A stretch of DNA of 64,000 nt, taken from the NCBI GenBank assembly GCA_903857255.1, contig CAIODY010000047.1:1-64000 (forward strand). The letters are read 5' to 3'. Position numbers and translations under genes: made by a program. Positions 3,050 through 16,843 of this stretch are shown here, in pieces (position 1 is the first letter of the stretch; the number at the start of each line of letters is the position of its first letter). The DNA comes from an uncultured bacterium (GTDB lineage Bacteria > Bacteroidota > Bacteroidia > Chitinophagales > CAIODY01). The notes under the pieces are model-generated. The model was given only the letters and a program-made list of their open reading frames with translations. It was not told where the DNA came from and searched no databases.

Positions 3050-5164
3050 ATGAGCATGAAAAAACTCTTACTGTTTTGTTTAATTTTTACGCTATCATCT
3101 TTTGTGTATAAGGCTTACAGCCAAGAGGAATTGCAAGAAGAAGATACCCAAACTACTTTGACAAAAGCCCAACAAAAAAAGTTGGCGCAAGAAGCTGCCA
3201 AGCAAAACAAATCGAAATCAAAAAGTAGTAGTAAAGCCTCTAAAACTACTTCTAAAATTGCTGACAACCAAGATGAATATGCAACGGATGGTGTTGATTC
3301 ATCAGCGTTAAAAACAAAAGCAAAAACTACAAAAAGTAGTACAGCTAAAACTTCAACAACTACAAAAGTAGCAAAGAAAGAACCAGCACCAGAGCCTGAA
3401 CCAACGCCAGCACCTAAAGCCGATAATGGAGATAGAACTTATACTGTTATCAACAAAAGTACCAATCCACCAACTTATGAAGTATTAGATTCATCAGCAC
3501 AAGGGCAATTAAATTTATATCGCCCATTGAATGATACAAATTGGGTGGCTGCAAAAAATTTGCGTCAAGCTCGTGAATACAAAGCTGGAACAGAACCCTA
3601 TCCAGCTAAACCCAAAAGTATGTGGCAGATTGGTGTCAACCTTGGCATTCCAAGTGTAAGTGGTGATTTGCAAACTTGGTTACGATTTGGTAAAACTTAT
3701 GGGATGGGATTCACAGTTCGCAAGGCTTTGGGTTATGTAGGGTCAATTAGATTTCAATATAATCAAGGAACAACCTATGGTGCAGGTTGGAAAGGAAGCC
3801 AATTTAGCCAGAATAATAATAAAGCTTTGAATGGACATAATGATAGCTTATTGAATTATGTTGGGAAAGATTTGTACTTGAATTATAAAATGAATTATAA
3901 GTCGTTTTATACACAAATTGTAATCAACCTAAATAATGTTAGATTTCACAGAGAGCGTTCAAAAGTAGTATTTTATGCTTTAGCAGGAGCAGGACCATTG
4001 TTGTATCACACTTACATGGATGAATTAGATGCTAGTGGTAAGATGTATGATGCAGCTTATTACAAAATAAATAATTCGCTTGACCATGCTGATAACACTG
4101 CTGTAAAAAAACAATTAAAAGCATTGTGGGATGGCACTTATGAAACTGATGCCGAACAAGACCCTTCATTTATGCACTTAGGAAAGAAAAATGCTGCAGG
4201 TCATTATCAGTGGAGAGTAGATGGAACAGTATGTTTTGGTATGGGCATGAGCATTCGTATGAGCCGACGTTGGACTATTAATTTAGAATCAATGCAAACA
4301 TTCACTGCTGATGATTTATTGGACGGACAACGTTGGACAGAACATCCATCAACTGACCCAACATTATCGCCTAATAATGACAATTTGAATTATTCTTCAG
4401 TTAGTTTAAATTATAACATTGGTGATAAATCAGCTGAGCCCCTATGGTGGTTAAACCCGATTGATAACCAGTTAGTGGTTTTGAATGAAACGAAAAATAA
4501 ATTAGCACGAATTCCTGAATTTACTGATAGTGATAATGATGGTGTAATTGACTTTTTAGATAGAGAACCTAATACGCCCGAAGGTTGCCCAGTTGATACA
4601 CATGGTGTGATGTTGGACAGTGATAAAGATGGTGTGCCAGATTGTAGAGATAAAGAGCCATTCTCACCACCAGGTGCAAAAGTAGATGCAGAGGGCGTTG
4701 CAGAGAAAAAGAACAATCCTGAAATTGATACTTTAATGGCACGTGTTAAGGATATGATTGCCAATGGTGCAGGAAAAAATGCAACTTTTCCAGGATGGTA
4801 TTTACCAATGATTCATTTTGATTTGGATAAAGATTATATCAAACCAGATTTTTATCCTGACTTATACCATGTTGCACAAGTGATGAAATTATATCCGCAA
4901 ATGAAATTGTATGTAGATGGTCATACCGATATTCGTCATTCTAATAAATACAATGAAGAATTATCACACCGCAGGGCTGAAAATGCTAGAAATTTCTTGT
5001 TGAAAAATTATGGTATTGACCCTGCAAGATTAATTGTTCGCTATTTGGGTAAAACAACCAATATGGTTAAAGATTTACCTGACCATTATGATTCAAGATT
5101 CGAACGAGAACAGTACATCAATCGCCGTGTTGAATTCACAGTTGTTCCTGAATCAATGCAATAA
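3050..5164 (+). CDS. OmpA-family outer-membrane protein with TSP3-like calcium repeats
   Basis: A 704-residue protein with an N-terminal signal peptide (MKKLLLFCLIFTLSS; cut likely after the YS of AYSQE). A low-complexity K/S/T-rich stretch (about residues 40-110) follows, with a short PEPEPTPAP segment. The middle looks like an outer-membrane beta-barrel domain (about 190-460). Next come two thrombospondin type 3-like Asp repeats (SDNDGVIDFLDREPNTPEGC and DSDKDGVPDCRDKEP), then a C-terminal OmpA peptidoglycan-binding domain containing YVDGHTD and a conserved NRRVEF. The architecture anchors the outer membrane to peptidoglycan. Two start codons (3050 and 3056) are possible. The gene stands alone, with its own promoter candidate and a strong terminator. 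Confidence 0.88.
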   Translation: MSMKKLLLFCLIFTLSSFVYKAYSQEELQEEDTQTTLTKAQQKKLAQEAAKQNKSKSKSSSKASKTTSKIADNQDEYATDGVDSSALKTKAKTTKSSTAKTSTTTKVAKKEPAPEPEPTPAPKADNGDRTYTVINKSTNPPTYEVLDSSAQGQLNLYRPLNDTNWVAAKNLRQAREYKAGTEPYPAKPKSMWQIGVNLGIPSVSGDLQTWLRFGKTYGMGFTVRKALGYVGSIRFQYNQGTTYGAGWKGSQFSQNNNKALNGHNDSLLNYVGKDLYLNYKMNYKSFYTQIVINLNNVRFHRERSKVVFYALAGAGPLLYHTYMDELDASGKMYDAAYYKINNSLDHADNTAVKKQLKALWDGTYETDAEQDPSFMHLGKKNAAGHYQWRVDGTVCFGMGMSIRMSRRWTINLESMQTFTADDLLDGQRWTEHPSTDPTLSPNNDNLNYSSVSLNYNIGDKSAEPLWWLNPIDNQLVVLNETKNKLARIPEFTDSDNDGVIDFLDREPNTPEGCPVDTHGVMLDSDKDGVPDCRDKEPFSPPGAKVDAEGVAEKKNNPEIDTLMARVKDMIANGAGKNATFPGWYLPMIHFDLDKDYIKPDFYPDLYHVAQVMKLYPQMKLYVDGHTDIRHSNKYNEELSHRRAENARNFLLKNYGIDPARLIVRYLGKTTNMVKDLPDHYDSRFEREQYINRRVEFTVVPESMQ

Positions 5165-8725: not shown

Positions 8726-8887
8726 TTGATTTTGTTTTTTTTGAGAAGAATGTTTTGTAAAAATCAAAAAGCTAAATTCCAAATCTCAACAAGAAATTTG
8801 GAATTTAGTTTTTAAAATTTTTAAAGATTGGATGGATGAAAAACAAAATTTTATTTCGTTTAAAATCACCAATCGCAAGTGTGTTCT

Positions 8888-9124
8888 TTATTTTACGTGT
8901 TCTTCTAAATAAGAAATGGCTTCGCCAACTTTTGTAATTTTTTCAGCTTGTTCATCAGGAATAGAAATGTTGAATTCTTTTTCAAATTCCATAATCAACT
9001 CAACAGTGTCCAACGAATCGGCACCTAAATCGTTAGTGAAACTTGCTTCAGGCGTAACTTCTGATTCTTCAACACCTAATTTGTCAACGATAATTTTTTT
9101 AACTCTTGCTGCAATGTCTGACAT
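8888..9124 (-). CDS. acpP: Acyl carrier protein
   Basis: A 78-residue acidic protein. The phosphopantetheine attachment motif [15 protein letters not shown] places the modified serine at S37. Helix and loop content match the usual four-helix ACP ([20 protein letters not shown] at the end). It carries acyl chains for FabF, encoded just downstream, and other FAS II enzymes in the cytoplasm. It is the first gene of the leftward run, with a good TAnnTTTG box upstream. Confidence 0.97.
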
Positions 9125-9156
9125 GATTTGTAATTTTATTTTTTTAAATTAGGCTG

Positions 9157-9164
9157 CAAATATA
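9157..9164 (-). promoter_or_regulatory. Candidate -7 box for acpP-fabF-rnc-rodA
   Basis: On the minus strand this reads TATATTTG, matching TAnnTTTG. It lies 32 nt before the acpP start and is the only good box in the 76-nt gap. Confidence 0.5.
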
Positions 9165-9200
9165 ATAGAGAGATTAAAATTTTAGTAACAATTTTTGGTT

Positions 9201-10013
9201 TTACATTTTTCTTATTTGAACCACTGCCGATTGCACCTCTTGTAAGATGTTAGCAATTCGCTCTTTTGTTAATCCGCCTTCGGGCAATTGATTGCTGATG
9301 TAGCTCACAAACTTCCATACTTCTTGCACTTCACTGATGTTTACTTCATAATCTTTGTATTGCGGATTTAGCGAACGCAACACTAAGTTTCGTTTCTTTT
9401 TGATTTGATTAAAAGCCAATTTGAAAACAATGCCATCGTTTTTTGTGAGTATAATATAAGCATATTCATCTTTAATATCGTTCCAATTTTCTAAATATTC
9501 AGCTAGCACATACGATTTATCAGGAATGGGCAACATGCTATCGCCTTCAATTTGAAACAACCTATATTTTCTTTCTCTGCTAGTAATTATCGGCAATTGA
9601 AATTTTGGCAATGATTCAATATAAGCTGGGTCGAAAAAACCCATTGCATAGCCGGCTTTGGCTTTGATGGGTACTACTTCAATGTTTTCAACATTATTTG
9701 AATCAACTGTGGTAGCCAAAATTCGGAGCTTTGAACCTGTGATAAAAACATCATTGCCCGATTGCAATTGCTTCAATTTGTATTCGCCAATTTTGCTTAA
9801 ATCATGCTTCAACAAAGCATCAATGCTGATTTTAAAATAGTCAGCCACAGTCACCAAATCTTCATTGGGCATATTGCTGCGAATGCCATTTTCATAACTG
9901 TTCAGTTTTCCACGGCTCATTTCTAAAATGGTGGCTAAATCTTCCTGACTTTTATTTTTTTGATTTCTCAAAAATTTGATGTTGCTGCCTAAAAATATTT
10001 TTTGTTGCTTCAT
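9201..10013 (-). CDS. XRE-type repressor with S24 (LexA/CI-like) autoprotease domain
   Basis: A 270-residue regulator. An N-terminal helix-turn-helix (about 10-65; SQEDLATILEMSRGKLNSYE) is followed by a linker and a peptidase S24 domain. The probable self-cleavage pair is A120-G121 (KAKAGYAMG). The nucleophile is S159 in EGDSMLP and the general base is K198 in GIVFKLAFN. Such proteins are phage CI-like or stress repressors cleaved on RecA filaments. No prophage genes are adjacent, so it may be a chromosomal stress regulator. Two palindromes just upstream (10026-10058) look like its own operators, implying autoregulation. The gene is convergent with nothing and divergent from a lipoprotein gene. 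Confidence 0.85.
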   Translation of the reverse strand: MKQQKIFLGSNIKFLRNQKNKSQEDLATILEMSRGKLNSYENGIRSNMPNEDLVTVADYFKISIDALLKHDLSKIGEYKLKQLQSGNDVFITGSKLRILATTVDSNNVENIEVVPIKAKAGYAMGFFDPAYIESLPKFQLPIITSRERKYRLFQIEGDSMLPIPDKSYVLAEYLENWNDIKDEYAYIILTKNDGIVFKLAFNQIKKKRNLVLRSLNPQYKDYEVNISEVQEVWKFVSYISNQLPEGGLTKERIANILQEVQSAVVQIRKM

Positions 10014-10025
10014 TTTTATTGATAC

Positions 10026-10058
10026 GTTACGTAACTATTTTACGATACTTAAAGTATC
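10026..10058. promoter_or_regulatory. Tandem palindromic operators upstream of the S24-type repressor
   Basis: A perfect 10-nt palindrome GTTACGTAAC (10026-10035) is followed by a 15-nt odd palindrome GATACTTAAAGTATC (10044-10058). Both lie 13-45 nt before the repressor start and share TAC/GTA half-site text. They probably overlap its promoter. Confidence 0.5.
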
Positions 10059-10164
10059 AAAGGTAAAACCATTTTTGAGTTTTACAAAGCTTTTAAATAA
10101 AAGTCAAATAAAAAATCGTAAATTTGATTTCTAATTTTTTTCAAACCAAAAAACATTTTCAATC

Positions 10165-10722
10165 ATGCAATCAAAAATTTACACATCGGCACTCATTGCA
10201 GTTTTTGCAGTGTCAGTTTTTTTCTCATCTTGTAAAAAAGATTTGACGGTTTCATTCGATAAAAGTTTCCCAGGTTTAAATCTTGTTTTAGACACTACCA
10301 GCCACACAGGCACGTTTACAATTTCGCAAGCGAATATTAATACAGGTATCTCTGCATTCGCTTCCAGCAATGGTTTCAGCGTTAACAACATTAAATCAGT
10401 GGTGATAAAAAGTTGCACTATTGGCATTGCTGACACCACCAATCCAATTGCATCTCGAATCACTTTTGATGCGTTGGATAGCATCAAAGCAACGCTTTCA
10501 TCAACAGGCTTAACTGATATGAAAATTGGAACTGTAAACCCCATGCCTCATACCGGATTAACATCCATAACCTTAAATTTGAACAATGCTGATGTAACTT
10601 CATTCATCAAAGCATCTCAATTTTCGTATGTGGTAACGGGGGCAAACAATGCTCCGATTACACATAAATTACCCATGACCGCATCAGTAACATTTACTAT
10701 TTCAGCTTCCATTACGAAATAG
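10165..10722 (+). CDS. Hypothetical lipoprotein
   Basis: A 185-residue protein with a lipoprotein signal peptide ending in FFSSC (lipobox; Cys near residue 23), followed by KK. The mature part is rich in Thr/Ser/Ile and reads like a beta-sandwich (LDTTSHTGTFTISQANI, ASVTFTISASI). I recognise no catalytic motif. It is divergent from the S24 repressor and ends at a clear terminator, so it is monocistronic. Function unknown. Confidence 0.75.
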   Translation: MQSKIYTSALIAVFAVSVFFSSCKKDLTVSFDKSFPGLNLVLDTTSHTGTFTISQANINTGISAFASSNGFSVNNIKSVVIKSCTIGIADTTNPIASRITFDALDSIKATLSSTGLTDMKIGTVNPMPHTGLTSITLNLNNADVTSFIKASQFSYVVTGANNAPITHKLPMTASVTFTISASITK

Positions 10723-10742
10723 TTTTGTCATCCATAAGAAGC

Positions 10743-10773
10743 AAAAAAGCCTTTCGAACTGAAAGGCTTTTTT
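10743..10773 (+). terminator. Rho-independent terminator after the lipoprotein gene
   Basis: A 13-nt stem (10743-10755 with 10761-10773; core GCCTTTC/GAAAGGC) and a 5-nt loop, followed by a T8 run. Confidence 0.85.
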
Positions 10774-10901
10774 TTATCCATAATTTTTTTAAAGATTTTT
10801 CTGCTTGACTAATCTTGAGGTTTAATCCATCCATTTTTGTATCCTACTATTCTAATCGCTATTACCAATAGTATTGTTTGTTTACAGTAGTCAGTAAAGT
10901 T
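10774..10901. other. Intergenic stretch without a recognised gene
   Basis: This is the first part of the roughly 400-nt gap between the lipoprotein and the PIN gene. It is A/T-rich with no convincing ORF. A short text resembling AGTAGTCAGTAAAG, common as degenerate micro-repeats near Bacteroidota genes, is seen near 10886. The rest of the gap is occupied by broken copy A. Confidence 0.5.
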
Positions 10902-11127
10902 TTATTTCTCTATCCACTTCACTATTTGAAAAGCTTCGGCAGCCTCACCCCACCCCTCTCCAATAGAGAGGGAGCAATACAGTTGCGCCACGATGAATGG
11001 CTAAGGCTTCCACATTTTTTTCACTTCTTGGAAATGGATGCTTGCCCATTTCCGATTCGTAAATGGAAAGCACATTGTGTTTGGTTTTGAAAATTGCATT
11101 ACCTTTGAAACCGAAATTTAAAAACAT
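10902..11127 (-). pseudogene. Broken C-terminal gene fragment, copy A (interrupted by a palindromic insert)
   Basis: On the minus strand about 50 codons read as protein (segments FKTKHNVLSIYESEMGK and NVEALAIHRGAT). They are cut by a roughly 39-nt insert (10942-10980), after which the frame resumes as AEAFQIVKWIEK and stops at 10902-10904. The second copy (11805-11894) has the same ending without the insert. I do not recognise the parent family. The fragment overlaps the start of the rightward PIN gene by two bases. Confidence 0.6.
10942..10980. repeat. Small palindromic insert (REP-like) inside copy A
   Basis: The insert holds a 7-nt stem CCCTCTC (10954-10960) / GAGAGGG (10966-10972) within a C/G-rich context unlike its surroundings. 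Comparison with copy B shows it replaces about 15 nt. Similar CTCACCCC...CTCTCC text recurs as a dispersed repeat in many Bacteroidota genomes, from memory. Confidence 0.5.
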
Positions 11128-11587
11128 GACGCAGCGATTTTATTTCGATACTTCGGTATTTGGTGGTGTGTTTGATAAAGAGTTTGAAGAATTTAGTTTT
11201 CAACTTTTTGAAAGAGTAAAATTGGGGCAATTGATTTGTGTTTATTCCGATTTAACTGAATCTGAATTATTAGATGCGCCAAAGAAAGTGGTAGCCTATT
11301 TTAAAAATTTACCACAACAATATATGGAACGGGTGGTGGTGAATGATGAAATTTTAGCTTTGGCTTCAAAATATATTAGTGAGAAAGTGGTAGGGCAAAC
11401 CAGCTTTGATGATTGTGTACATATTGCCACAGCAACTATTCATAAAGCTGATATTTTAGTAAGTTGGAATTTTAAACACATTGTAAATGTGTATCGCATC
11501 AGAGGGTATAATGCCATAAATATTCGCTCCAATTATTCATTGTTAGAAATTCGTTCGCCAAAAGAAATCATACAATATGAAGATTAA
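11126..11587 (+). CDS. PIN-domain ribonuclease toxin (VapC-like)
   Basis: A 153-residue PIN domain, cytoplasmic. Acidic residues expected for metal binding are visible: D in YFDTSVFGG near the N-terminus, E in TESELLDAP (residues about 53-58), and D in SFDDCVHIATATIHKADILVSWNF (about 95-120), ending with the family's W-N-F-K-H block. The start at 11126 (MTQRFYFDTSVFGG) is preferred over 11063 because the domain begins there. Its last four codons overlap a 51-codon ORF in another frame, a typical toxin-antitoxin arrangement with the toxin first. It is flanked by two copies of a broken gene, suggesting recent acquisition. Confidence 0.8.
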   Translation: MTQRFYFDTSVFGGVFDKEFEEFSFQLFERVKLGQLICVYSDLTESELLDAPKKVVAYFKNLPQQYMERVVVNDEILALASKYISEKVVGQTSFDDCVHIATATIHKADILVSWNFKHIVNVYRIRGYNAINIRSNYSLLEIRSPKEIIQYED

Positions 11588-11732
11588 AAAACAAGCCCCC
11601 GAAAAAGAGTTTGATACGGTTAAAACTTTTAGAGCTATCAAAGAAAAATTATCACTCGAAATGGCTGATATGAGTTTTGAACAAATCAAAGCGTTGTTAA
11701 AAAAACGAAGTAGGCAGTTGCAAGCGCAGTAG
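11577..11732 (+). CDS. Small antitoxin-like partner of the PIN toxin
   Basis: 51 residues, basic at both ends. It contains FDTVKTFRAIKEKLSLEMAD followed by MSFEQIKALLKK, matching small proteins that follow PIN-domain genes in Bacteroidota and Cyanobacteria (FDxVxxxRxIKEKxxxExxxMxxEEI pattern). The ATG lies inside the last codons of the PIN gene (11-nt overlap), so translational coupling is likely. Too short for ordinary gene calling. Neutralising the PIN nuclease is inferred from position and pattern. Confidence 0.7.
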   Translation: MKIKKQAPEKEFDTVKTFRAIKEKLSLEMADMSFEQIKALLKKRSRQLQAQ

Positions 11733-11804
11733 ATAGAAGTTATAAGTATTCAGTTGCCAGTTTTCAGTAAAAGGCAAACGCACTTTACAAACTTTAACAA
11801 CCGA

Positions 11805-11894
11805 TTATTTATCTACCCACTTCACAATTTGAAATGCTTCGGCATATTCTACCCCAGCCGTTGCGCCACGATGAATGGCTGATGCTTCAACATT
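11805..11894 (-). pseudogene. Broken C-terminal gene fragment, copy B
   Basis: On the minus strand the text NVEASAIHRGATAGVEYAEA, then FQIVKWVDK and a stop, lies directly after the neuC stop codon and in the same reading frame. It matches the end of copy A (10902-11127). The parent gene is unrecognised; its position suggests it once followed neuC. Confidence 0.6.
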
Positions 11895-13052
11895 TTAATG
11901 TAGGTCGTGAAATGATTTCTTTAAGTTAATAGTAGGTATATTTTTCTTGAGCAACTCAATAATTTTGTTAGCTGAATTTCCTGAACCAAATGGATATGGG
12001 TCTTTTGCAGCATTTTTAACAAAAGCATTAGTTCTAGCCTTAATTATTGATTTTGAAATATCTAAGAATGATGCTCCGCAATCTATTACCGTCGCAGCTT
12101 TGTGCCGCCCTTTTTGTCTATCTCCGATGTTAATAGTTGGATGTTTAAAGTAAGGCATTTCAATTATACCTGCTGACGAATTCCCAATCATCATGTCAAC
12201 ATTTTTCAAAGTGGAAAGAAATTTTTTCATTCCTAATGAGTCAACCAATACGGCATTATCTCTTTTTGCAACAAATGCTTCCAACGCCTTATTTAAAACA
12301 TCACCATCCGTATCAGCATTTGATTTGTTGAATACCAAATTCATTTCAGGAAAATGATTTAAGGCTTCTAATAAATTTTGCAAATGTTGTAAAGAAGTAC
12401 TCTTTTCTAAAGTTACAGGATGATAGGTAATTAATGCAGATGGTGAAGCCAAAGAAATTCCGATAAACTTTTCTAATTCTTCTTTCGACAATAAGTTTTC
12501 TTGTTGAATATTATCAACTACTAAAGCACCAACATTGAAAACTGTTTTTGGATTTTCGCCCAATTGAATTACTCTGTTTTGATACTCCTCACAAATCACA
12601 AAATGTAATGCAGAAAGTTTTGTGATTGAATGGCGGAAACCTTCATCAAATGCACCTGCCGATACTTCGCCGCCGTGAATATGTGCAATTGGAATTTGCA
12701 ATACATAAGCCGCAATGGCTGCTGCAAACACTTCATATCTATCGCCTAAAACCAAAACCAAATCGGGTTTGGCTGTGGAATAGTAATTCGAAAATTGAGC
12801 AATTAATTTTCCAATGGCTTCATTGATTGCGTTAGCCGAAGTGGTTGTTAAATGGGTCGGAATTTTTTCGACCGTAGCAAAATTATCTTTTTCAATTTCG
12901 GTAATCGTGTTACCAAATTTTTCATCCAAATGAGAGCCAGTGGCAACCACAACTAAATCAAATGCTTCATCTTTTTCTATTTTTTTTAGTAATGGTTTTA
13001 AAATACCATAGTCGGCTCGGCTGCTGGTTACTGCTATGATTTTATGTTTCAA
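11895..13052 (-). CDS. neuC: UDP-N-acetylglucosamine 2-epimerase (hydrolysing), NeuC/LegG type
   Basis: A 385-residue GT-B-like epimerase. It would convert a UDP-HexNAc to free ManNAc-type sugar plus UDP, the entry step to sialic or legionaminic acid. Visible motifs are TSSRADYG (9-16), LVLGDRYEVFA (100-110), AHIHGGEVSAGAFDEGFRHS (123-142), ITYHPVT, and GNSSAGIIE, which lies in the UDP-binding region. The SRADYG N-terminus separates NeuC-like hydrolysing enzymes from WecB. A NeuD-like acyltransferase lies about 3 kb away on the same strand with a secreted protein between. neuA and neuB are not in the window. Its GDP- versus UDP-sugar choice (LegG uses GDP-linked substrate in Campylobacter) cannot be decided. 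Confidence 0.88.
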   Translation of the reverse strand: MKHKIIAVTSSRADYGILKPLLKKIEKDEAFDLVVVATGSHLDEKFGNTITEIEKDNFATVEKIPTHLTTTSANAINEAIGKLIAQFSNYYSTAKPDLVLVLGDRYEVFAAAIAAYVLQIPIAHIHGGEVSAGAFDEGFRHSITKLSALHFVICEEYQNRVIQLGENPKTVFNVGALVVDNIQQENLLSKEELEKFIGISLASPSALITYHPVTLEKSTSLQHLQNLLEALNHFPEMNLVFNKSNADTDGDVLNKALEAFVAKRDNAVLVDSLGMKKFLSTLKNVDMMIGNSSAGIIEMPYFKHPTINIGDRQKGRHKAATVIDCGASFLDISKSIIKARTNAFVKNAAKDPYPFGSGNSANKIIELLKKNIPTINLKKSFHDLH

Positions 13053-16225: not shown

Positions 16226-16843
16226 CTACTTCGCTGGATTGCCTACCACTGTTTTTCCATCTTCTACATTTTTAATTACCACTGCGCCTGCACCAATCAC
16301 ACAGTTTTTACCAATGCTGATGCCTTGTTTCACCACTGCATTAGCACCCACAAAACTGCCTTCGCCTACTTTCACATTGCCACACAAAACCGCACCAGGA
16401 GCAATATGTACAAAGTCAGCAATTATACATTCATGCTCAATAATACTGCCTGTGTTTAAAATCACACCATTGCCAATATTAGTGCAAGGGTTAATCACCA
16501 CATTAGCCCCAACCATAGTGCTGATGCCCATTTCAACATGCGAACCTATAATAGCTGATGGATGAATGGCATTGATAAATTCACATTCGGCATTCATTAA
16601 TTCAAATACTTTTTTCCGCATTTTATTATCGCCATTGGCAATAAATGCTGGGTGCTTTTTTAATAATTTTTTCACCGCTTCATCGGTCTCAAAGCCTAAA
16701 TGTTTTAGCTTGAAAGGGTTTTGGGTTTTAGGTTCTTTTTCTAAATAACCCAACATAGTTTCGCCTGATTTAATAAGTATATCAGCCACTACAAAAGCAT
16801 GACCTGAATAACTGAAAAGAATGATAGCATTGTTGTTTGTCAT
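16226..16843 (-). CDS. Sugar O/N-acyltransferase, NeuD/PglD-like (left-handed beta-helix)
   Basis: A 205-residue protein. The N-terminal Rossmann-like half begins NNNAIILFSYSGHAFVVADI, as in NeuD and PglD. The C-terminal half (about 95-200) is a hexapeptide left-handed beta-helix with IHPSAIIG, HIAPGAVLCG, VGANAVVKQG and VIGAGAVVIKNV; the central His of INAIHPSA and H/E pairs near IIEHE are active-site-like. It transfers an acetyl group from acetyl-CoA to a nucleotide-linked amino sugar or nonulosonate. Location near neuC supports a role in nonulosonate surface-sugar synthesis. The cognate substrate is unknown. Confidence 0.85.
   Translation of the reverse strand: MTNNNAIILFSYSGHAFVVADILIKSGETMLGYLEKEPKTQNPFKLKHLGFETDEAVKKLLKKHPAFIANGDNKMRKKVFELMNAECEFINAIHPSAIIGSHVEMGISTMVGANVVINPCTNIGNGVILNTGSIIEHECIIADFVHIAPGAVLCGNVKVGEGSFVGANAVVKQGISIGKNCVIGAGAVVIKNVEDGKTVVGNPAK

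Follow-up and report, generated by a model that had tools for sequence, protein, structure and literature searches.

Duplicated PIG-L gene tails around a PIN toxin-antitoxin unit behind neuC, and similar brackets around related units

In an uncultured Chitinophagales bacterium, a small unit consisting of a PIN-domain toxin gene and a presumed antitoxin gene lies between two copies of the same gene end, the C-terminus of a PIG-L deacetylase, directly behind neuC. The toxin-antitoxin (TA) unit probably entered the PIG-L tail with a long duplication of its target, and the locus would be an old and decayed case of such an entry. The event is one of a class of bracketed TA insertions, which extends the earlier sequence-only reading of this DNA. 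The window, meaning the whole stretch of 64,000 nucleotides that was analysed, belongs to contig C47 of a 134-contig, 2.97 Mb genome.

The duplicated tails and the unit between them

The features of the locus are the following.

10902..11091, minus strand: copy A, 3′ part of a PIG-L deacetylase gene from about codon 169 to the stop, a remnant with a palindromic interruption (upper limit by eye)
10942..10981, no strand assigned: palindromic stretch in copy A, with the dispersed repeat 10954-10972 as its core (19 distinct places; copy A folds at z -2.7)
11089..11804, plus strand: putative inserted unit of ~716 nt between copies A and B (limits inferred)
11126..11587, plus strand: PIN-domain toxin gene, 153 aa (D8, E47 and D96 invariant; Pfam PIN 20.3 bits)
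11577..11732, plus strand: small second gene, 51 aa, presumed antitoxin, overlapping the PIN gene by 11 nt
11805..11896, minus strand: copy B, last 29 codons and stop of a PIG-L gene, the 5′ part of the gene missing
11895..13052, minus strand: neuC, UDP-N-acetylglucosamine 2-epimerase, intact (TIGR03568, 447.7 bits over a cut-off of 235.9)
16226..16843, minus strand: neuD-type sugar acetyltransferase (TIGR03570, 213.1 bits)

A repeat search of the window aligned copies A and B in register on the minus strand in two blocks, 10902-10941 with 11805-11844 (40 nt, 90% identical, 903 nt apart) and 10982-11018 with 11860-11896 (37 nt, 92% identical, 878 nt apart), with the rightward PIN/antitoxin unit (11126-11732) between them. 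Copy A reads NVEALAIHRGA...AEAFQIVKWIEK-stop and copy B NVEASAIHRGA...AEAFQIVKWVDK-stop, the C-terminal end of both being AEAFQIVKW(I/V)(E/D)K-stop. This agrees with the sequence-only reading, which had placed the same C-terminal text twice on the minus strand, about 900 nt apart, around a rightward PIN/antitoxin pair, and had described copy A as the longer one with a palindromic insert and copy B as lying in frame right behind the neuC stop. Copy B opens in frame immediately 3′ of that stop, and the PIG-L homology of copy A starts near 11091, as judged by eye from the reading frame. The two aligned blocks of the repeat total 77 nt, to which the interrupted part must be added, and the target would have measured ~165 nt; the direct repeats on either side of the unit have a length of the order of 100 bp.

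The duplicated tails are not due to chance, because the copies have a common coding frame and stop and because intact genes elsewhere carry the same tail. Since the copies are only ~91% alike, the duplication event appears to be old and its boundaries blurred. The copies differ at 7 of 75 aligned positions and five of these seven differences fall at third codon positions (P = 0.045), which hints weakly that one copy or both went on coding once the duplication had taken place; this would be expected if copy B was part of a whole gene. When the tail peptide was searched against the window's own genome, it gave three matches, all within copies A and B, and a second tail query additionally picked up a more distantly related PIG-L gene (contig C6; 42% over 33 residues). 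In a 60-genome search, the window's genome included, the first tail peptide matched nothing beyond the window's own places.

In copy A, the 40 nt at 10942-10981 replace 15 nt of copy B (11845-11859), which shifts the frame and brings a stop soon after. The core at 10954-10972 is a dispersed palindrome, with 36 pattern matches on both strands, at 19 distinct places in the genome, at one mismatch or fewer, against 0 matches for the reversed-pattern control. The palindrome is a separate, dispersed element, a point that the sequence-only reading did not include. Palindromes of the type CCCTCTCC...GGAGAGGG are found at 10954-10972 and at 18 other places in the window's genome (G000), and like stretches occur in its congener G001. 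Folding gave z -0.9 and no long hairpin for copy B, and z -2.7 for copy A, in which the hairpin is the dispersed palindrome. An origin of the window repeats as attC sites was rejected, the copies being coding sequence of genes that are intact elsewhere and having no long hairpin.

A tail peptide was matched in 16 of 396 genomes of the order, the window's own included (E up to 0.001). The three best places outside the window's genome (loci L004, L005 and L006) are the ends of intact proteins of 222-225 aa, and the whole L004 protein, the one scanned against Pfam, belongs to PF02585, PIG-L (86.7 bits). Copy A aligns to this protein from residue 169 (start by eye) with 68% identity, and copy B, with 72% identity, corresponds to residues 194-222. 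The gene order in L004 is neuC - PIG-L - neuD, with neuC partial in the locus (TIGR03568, 267.4 bits), neuD at 200.3 bits (TIGR03570) and no PIN match within the 3.1 kb of the locus. At 135-2249 of L004, the three genes overlap or nearly touch. This order suggests a deacetylation/reacetylation step in a nonulosonate-type cluster. One PIG-L gene is present in each of L004, L005 and L006 (3.1 kb each), and its surroundings in L005 and L006 differ from those in L004. A different gene lies next to neuC in G001 and G003-G005, and G002 is syntenic at neuC, but its contig stops inside neuC.

Judging from the order in L004 alone, neuC was probably followed by a PIG-L deacetylase gene in the ancestor of the window as well. 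The sequence-only reading had proposed that a gene once following neuC was lost, and that the region downstream of neuC in relatives be inspected for an intact gene without the PIN unit. L004, and among these loci L004 only, has such a gene, a PIG-L deacetylase intact between neuC and neuD with the motif present once. Because the motif occurs once in this intact gene, copies A and B are duplicates; a single gene split in two, which the sequence-only reading had named as its refutation, was rejected, the intact genes of L004, L005 and L006 having the motif once. No close relative showing the window's own empty site was found, and L004 serves as a distant comparison only.

The toxin scores 20.3 bits against Pfam PIN, below the cut-off of 23.6. 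D8, E47 and D96 are invariant in 13 aligned sequences, the window's included, and 6 of these 13 family members have a PIN match at E up to 0.01. An ORF of 49-65 aa lies directly behind the PIN gene at 21 of the 25 other loci for which ORFs were listed, and for the remaining four none was listed by the overlap filter. The 51-aa partner has no Pfam family match, and its antitoxin role is presumed from its place behind the PIN gene; likewise, the toxicity of the PIN protein and its neutralisation by the partner are predicted functions. The unit contains the PIN gene and the small gene only and is not a restriction-modification system. Among the 31 matches listed, the DNA in common with the window unit starts at 11089 in one (L075), at 11117-11141 in 20 and at 11345-11386 in 10, and ends between 11521 and 11738, so that the common DNA is the PIN and antitoxin genes and stops near them. 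At 14 listed loci the insert ends have no mutual likeness by eye.

The PIN family is carried by 12 of 60 genomes, the window's included (E up to 1e-10). Plasmid carriage as a visible vector was rejected, with only three plasmid records, all from Leptospira, at E up to 1e-10, as was phage carriage, with no phage record at E up to 1e-6. PADLOC and PHROGs gave no match at E up to 0.01, which led to the rejection of a known defence or phage family, and no solved structure was matched by the toxin sequence at the same limit.

Bracketing repeats at other loci of the toxin family

Repeats around the PIN gene at some loci of the 60-genome search prompted a survey, which also took the best 80 of 555 PIN relatives, whose hosts are mostly Bacteroidota by record title, with a few Fibrimonas-, Cloacimonadota- and Kapaibacterium-type records, and the loci of a third search; many survey rows are metagenome assemblies. 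The first pass comprised 131 loci, of which 124 are distinct and 108 have at least 600 nt on each side, and revealed 37 direct and 5 inverted bracketing repeats. By a script rule, 21 of the 37 are two-copy and non-palindromic and 16 are multi-copy or palindromic. In an extra set, formed by 17 of 25 further places of the third search that lacked a locus (the window's own place is not among the 25), direct repeats were found at 10 of 17 and inverted ones at 1 of 17, seven of the 17, with 4 of the 10, coming from one genome (G637).

The pooled test used uniform 700-nt flanks on 141 distinct loci, 123 of them assessable, the window included. Direct bracketing repeats are present at 40 of the 123 loci, again counting the window, and inverted ones at 6 of 123. 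Left flanks compared with right flanks of different loci gave 0/365, and shifted spans on the same contigs gave 11/477 (from 67 loci, 7 of them with any). In an earlier control on 34 full-length loci, 12 had direct repeats at the PIN unit vs 0 and 2 at two shifted places, and 4 of 56 pseudo-centres in the window were bracketed. Across the 40 loci the median repeat length is 91 nt (range 33-372), 30 of the repeats measuring between 50 and 200 nt, and 36 of the 40 pairs are spaced 739-1103 nt apart, a range partly set by the 700-nt flanks. The distance from the repeat to the PIN match is 0-422 nt upstream and 22-579 nt downstream. No bracketing repeat at threshold was seen at 83 of the 123 loci, and this repeat-free two thirds may reflect age or another route.

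Each locus has its own local DNA as bracketing repeat, and many of these repeats include ends of neighbouring genes. They hold the 3′ end of mfd in L083, the end of pheT in L133, the end of a DUF1905 gene in L092, the end of a LIM/DA1 gene in L163, the 5′ end of a TauE gene in L127 and a leader with the start of a long reading frame in L222. The repeat of L125 falls in the antitoxin region, its start being 22 nt past the PIN match, and the copies in L120 and L227 are only 61-64% alike.

Several TA types lie between copies of one repeat in L079, L077, L102, L113 and L038. At 405-2763 of L079, copies of one 46-91 nt repeat separate an MNT/HepT pair, a PIN/antitoxin pair and a third presumed TA pair, the latter made of an 81-aa gene of no known family and two overlapping PIN-like frames. 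L077, L102 and L113 are likewise arrays, with Gp49/HTH or MNT genes. In L038, which is outside the 40 with its pair 1719 nt apart, copies of the nadA 3′ region alternate with a HepT/MntA pair and a PIN pair.

The three copies of the mfd 3′ end at 1343-4971 of L083 enclose a gene for an ice-binding, sorting-tail protein between the first two and a PIN/antitoxin pair between the last two; in this locus, a non-TA gene is in the same kind of bracket. Among 30 HepT-type TA loci, 3 of them too short and 27 assessable, the footprint was found at 2 of 27 at a spacing of up to 1300 and at 4 of 27 at any spacing, with 0 inverted. Two HepT-type loci, L216 (G398) and L197 (G427), have bracketing repeats of 59-60 nt with 90-93% identity, and the set contains congeners of G398, whose genome is a single contig.

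Hairpin-like repeats were counted at 8 of 40 loci at z < -4, and at no fewer than 9 of 40 when the attC-like L047 is added; 32 of 40 are not hairpin-like at this threshold, L047 being counted among the 32. Some of the loci with hairpin- or attC-like repeats may be cassettes. L047, on contig C78 of the window's genome, holds a second PIN/antitoxin pair between parts of attC-like repeats (1274-1329 and 2023-2168). Its repeat is a long imperfect hairpin with GCCAACG...CGTTGGC ends (z -5.2), and recurs at nine places in the congener G001, with up to 97% identity over 146 nt. From its sequence, L047 looks like an integron-type cassette, and attC-like is a better class for it than 'unique', its first-pass label. 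At 2885-2919 of L047, where contig C78 ends, the sequence reads like what we take to be an Illumina adapter, and this contig end is probably an assembly artefact.

An apparent empty site is provided by two congeners. In G637 (L221) the order is R1 - PIN/antitoxin - R2 - lipoprotein-like gene, with a repeat R of ~89 nt and R1 and R2 97-98% alike, while one contig of G774 (L268) has the repeat once and no PIN match. The stretch 2657-2764 of G637 (19 nt of left flank and R1) aligns to 3758-3864 of G774 at 81%, and 3761-4122 (R2 and right flank) to 3779-4139 at 75%. Because both alignments converge there, the left and right sides of G637 meet in one repeat copy of G774, and because the identity between R1 and R2 exceeds that of both alignments to G774, the duplication would have followed the split of G637 and G774. 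On the left side only ~20 nt match past R. Another 108 nt match at 70%, but at different distances, ~260 nt in G637 and ~20 nt in G774, and between this side and a common EamA gene the two genomes carry different genes. G774 is hence an apparent empty site for the G637 insertion, the left side contributing short matches. A second candidate (L163; G681 vs G772) is ambiguous, because at the repeat two contigs share an overlap of exactly 127 nt. The sequence-only reading had tied the duplication or insertion in the window to the acquisition of the toxin module, and this link gains support from the recurrence at many loci and from the one apparent empty site.

Proposed course of the insertion and its rivals

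The reading that we consider probable for the window is an entry of the PIN/antitoxin unit into the 3′ part of an intact PIG-L gene behind neuC. The entry would have duplicated a target of ~165 nt, from about codon 169 to the stop, onto both sides of the unit. Copy B, on the neuC side and joined to the remainder of the gene, would have kept PIG-L whole at first, while copy A would have been left behind as a stray tail. A later deletion is required, because copy A contains more of the gene than copy B; this loss of the PIG-L 5′ part, up to codon 193, would have brought copy B against the neuC stop. Copy A would later have gained the dispersed palindrome. As for the physical step, the most likely mechanism is that a linear fragment was captured where nicks stood widely spaced at a break, and that fill-in copied the overhang on both sides, because the inserted units have no visible common termini and no recombinase. 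The unit probably persists because recombination between the repeats, which would remove it, would release the toxin; such retention by addiction is proposed by analogy with the known logic of TA and restriction-modification units.

A first rival holds that two tandem PIG-L paralogues behind neuC both decayed and that the TA unit landed between them independently. The ~91% likeness of the copies, with five of the seven differences at third codon positions as for genes that diverge while coding, suits this scenario, as does another PIG-L gene in the window's genome. However, no genome was seen with two PIG-L genes behind neuC, though only L004 has even one there, and it would stay unexplained why other members of the TA family are bracketed in the same way by unrelated DNA, which makes tandem paralogues unlikely.

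Alternatively, a circle carrying the TA unit and the PIG-L tail of another strain could have integrated in the Campbell manner, by homologous recombination at the tail. Such an integration yields a repeat - TA - repeat structure, the divergence of copies A and B would suit an incoming allele, and a circle could form by recombination between the repeats of an existing copy (reasoned from the anatomy; no circle was seen). We nevertheless judge it rather improbable, since the repeats differ by locus and the first insertion at each new target would stay unexplained. In addition, R1 and R2 of G637 show more identity with one another than either side shows with the congener G774, as local duplication predicts, and no vector is visible, with 3 Leptospira plasmid records and no phage record at the limits used.

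An element with defined ends and a very long target duplication, driven by a transposase or recombinase served in trans, would account for one toxin family at many unrelated sites and for the 739-1103 nt spacing of 36/40 pairs (a flank-limited range), but it is very improbable, given that the insert ends at 14 loci have no common sequence by eye, that the repeat-to-PIN distance varies and that the common DNA is the coding unit only. An integron-type gene cassette with the repeats as attC sites, which L047 in the same genome and family (bracketed by hairpin parts dispersed in G001) and the 8/40 hairpin-like repeats might recommend, is hardly credible for the window, whose copies are coding sequence of intact genes elsewhere without a long hairpin, and for which a search with 8885-12100 found no tail copy in five relatives (among the first 40 candidates scored per genome).

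Beyond the insertion into the PIG-L tail, a joint reading of all loci is offered tentatively. Small TA pairs would be mobile without a recombinase and, in Bacteroidota and neighbours, would enter gene ends while duplicating ~50-200 nt of target, the target gene keeping an intact end. Repeated entries would build arrays in which TA types alternate with one tail, and addiction would guard against precise loss between the repeats. If the joint reading is true, addiction may be the reason why addictive units dominate such insertions.

Relation to known systems

A recurrent footprint, with local DNA duplicated on both sides and an apparent empty site in a congener, makes the movement of chromosomal TA pairs without a transposase or integrase testable, as insertions become datable and targets listable. 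It also yields the prediction that addictive units are hard to remove by recombination of their flanking repeats, and it links TA units with what restriction-modification units are known to do.

Both copies in the window are the C-terminus of a PIG-L / LmbE deacetylase of the kind found in nonulosonate clusters, but in contrast to these clusters the window keeps the tails only. Similar to VapBC-type systems, a PIN-like protein with D8, E47 and D96 stands beside a very small partner gene; unlike in these systems, the toxin gene comes first and the partner second, the PIN domain scores below the Pfam cut-off and the partner has no Pfam family. TA units between repeats are likewise known from integron cassettes, and L047 has that look, whereas the window repeat is coding sequence without the long hairpin of attC and 32/40 repeats are not hairpin-like.

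The closest parallel is offered by restriction-modification units, which reportedly insert with a long target duplication, as is said to have been described by Nobusato et al. in 2000 and by Furuta et al. in 2010. Passages in three papers describe a restriction-modification unit without a recombinase whose direct repeats, of the order of 100 bp, are local target DNA (PMC3874152, PMC1643837, PMC3031569); in the corresponding passages, a fourth paper cites the original target-duplication paper only (PMC2654758) and the target duplications of a fifth are short ones (PMC4615327). Like the insertions in these passages, the unit in the window is small and presumably addictive, has no recombinase and is flanked by local direct repeats of ~100 bp. 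A further likeness is a repeat that differs by target (0/365 in the cross-locus control), and the apparent empty site in a congener for one PIN locus, with its short left-side match, may be another. The differences are that the unit here is a PIN toxin/antitoxin pair, with hosts that are mostly Bacteroidota by record title (best 80 of 555), and that some loci are arrays in which copies of one repeat separate several TA types. Among the matches listed from the open-licence PubMed Central literature, and in the passages of these five papers, no report of TA units moving by long target duplication was found.
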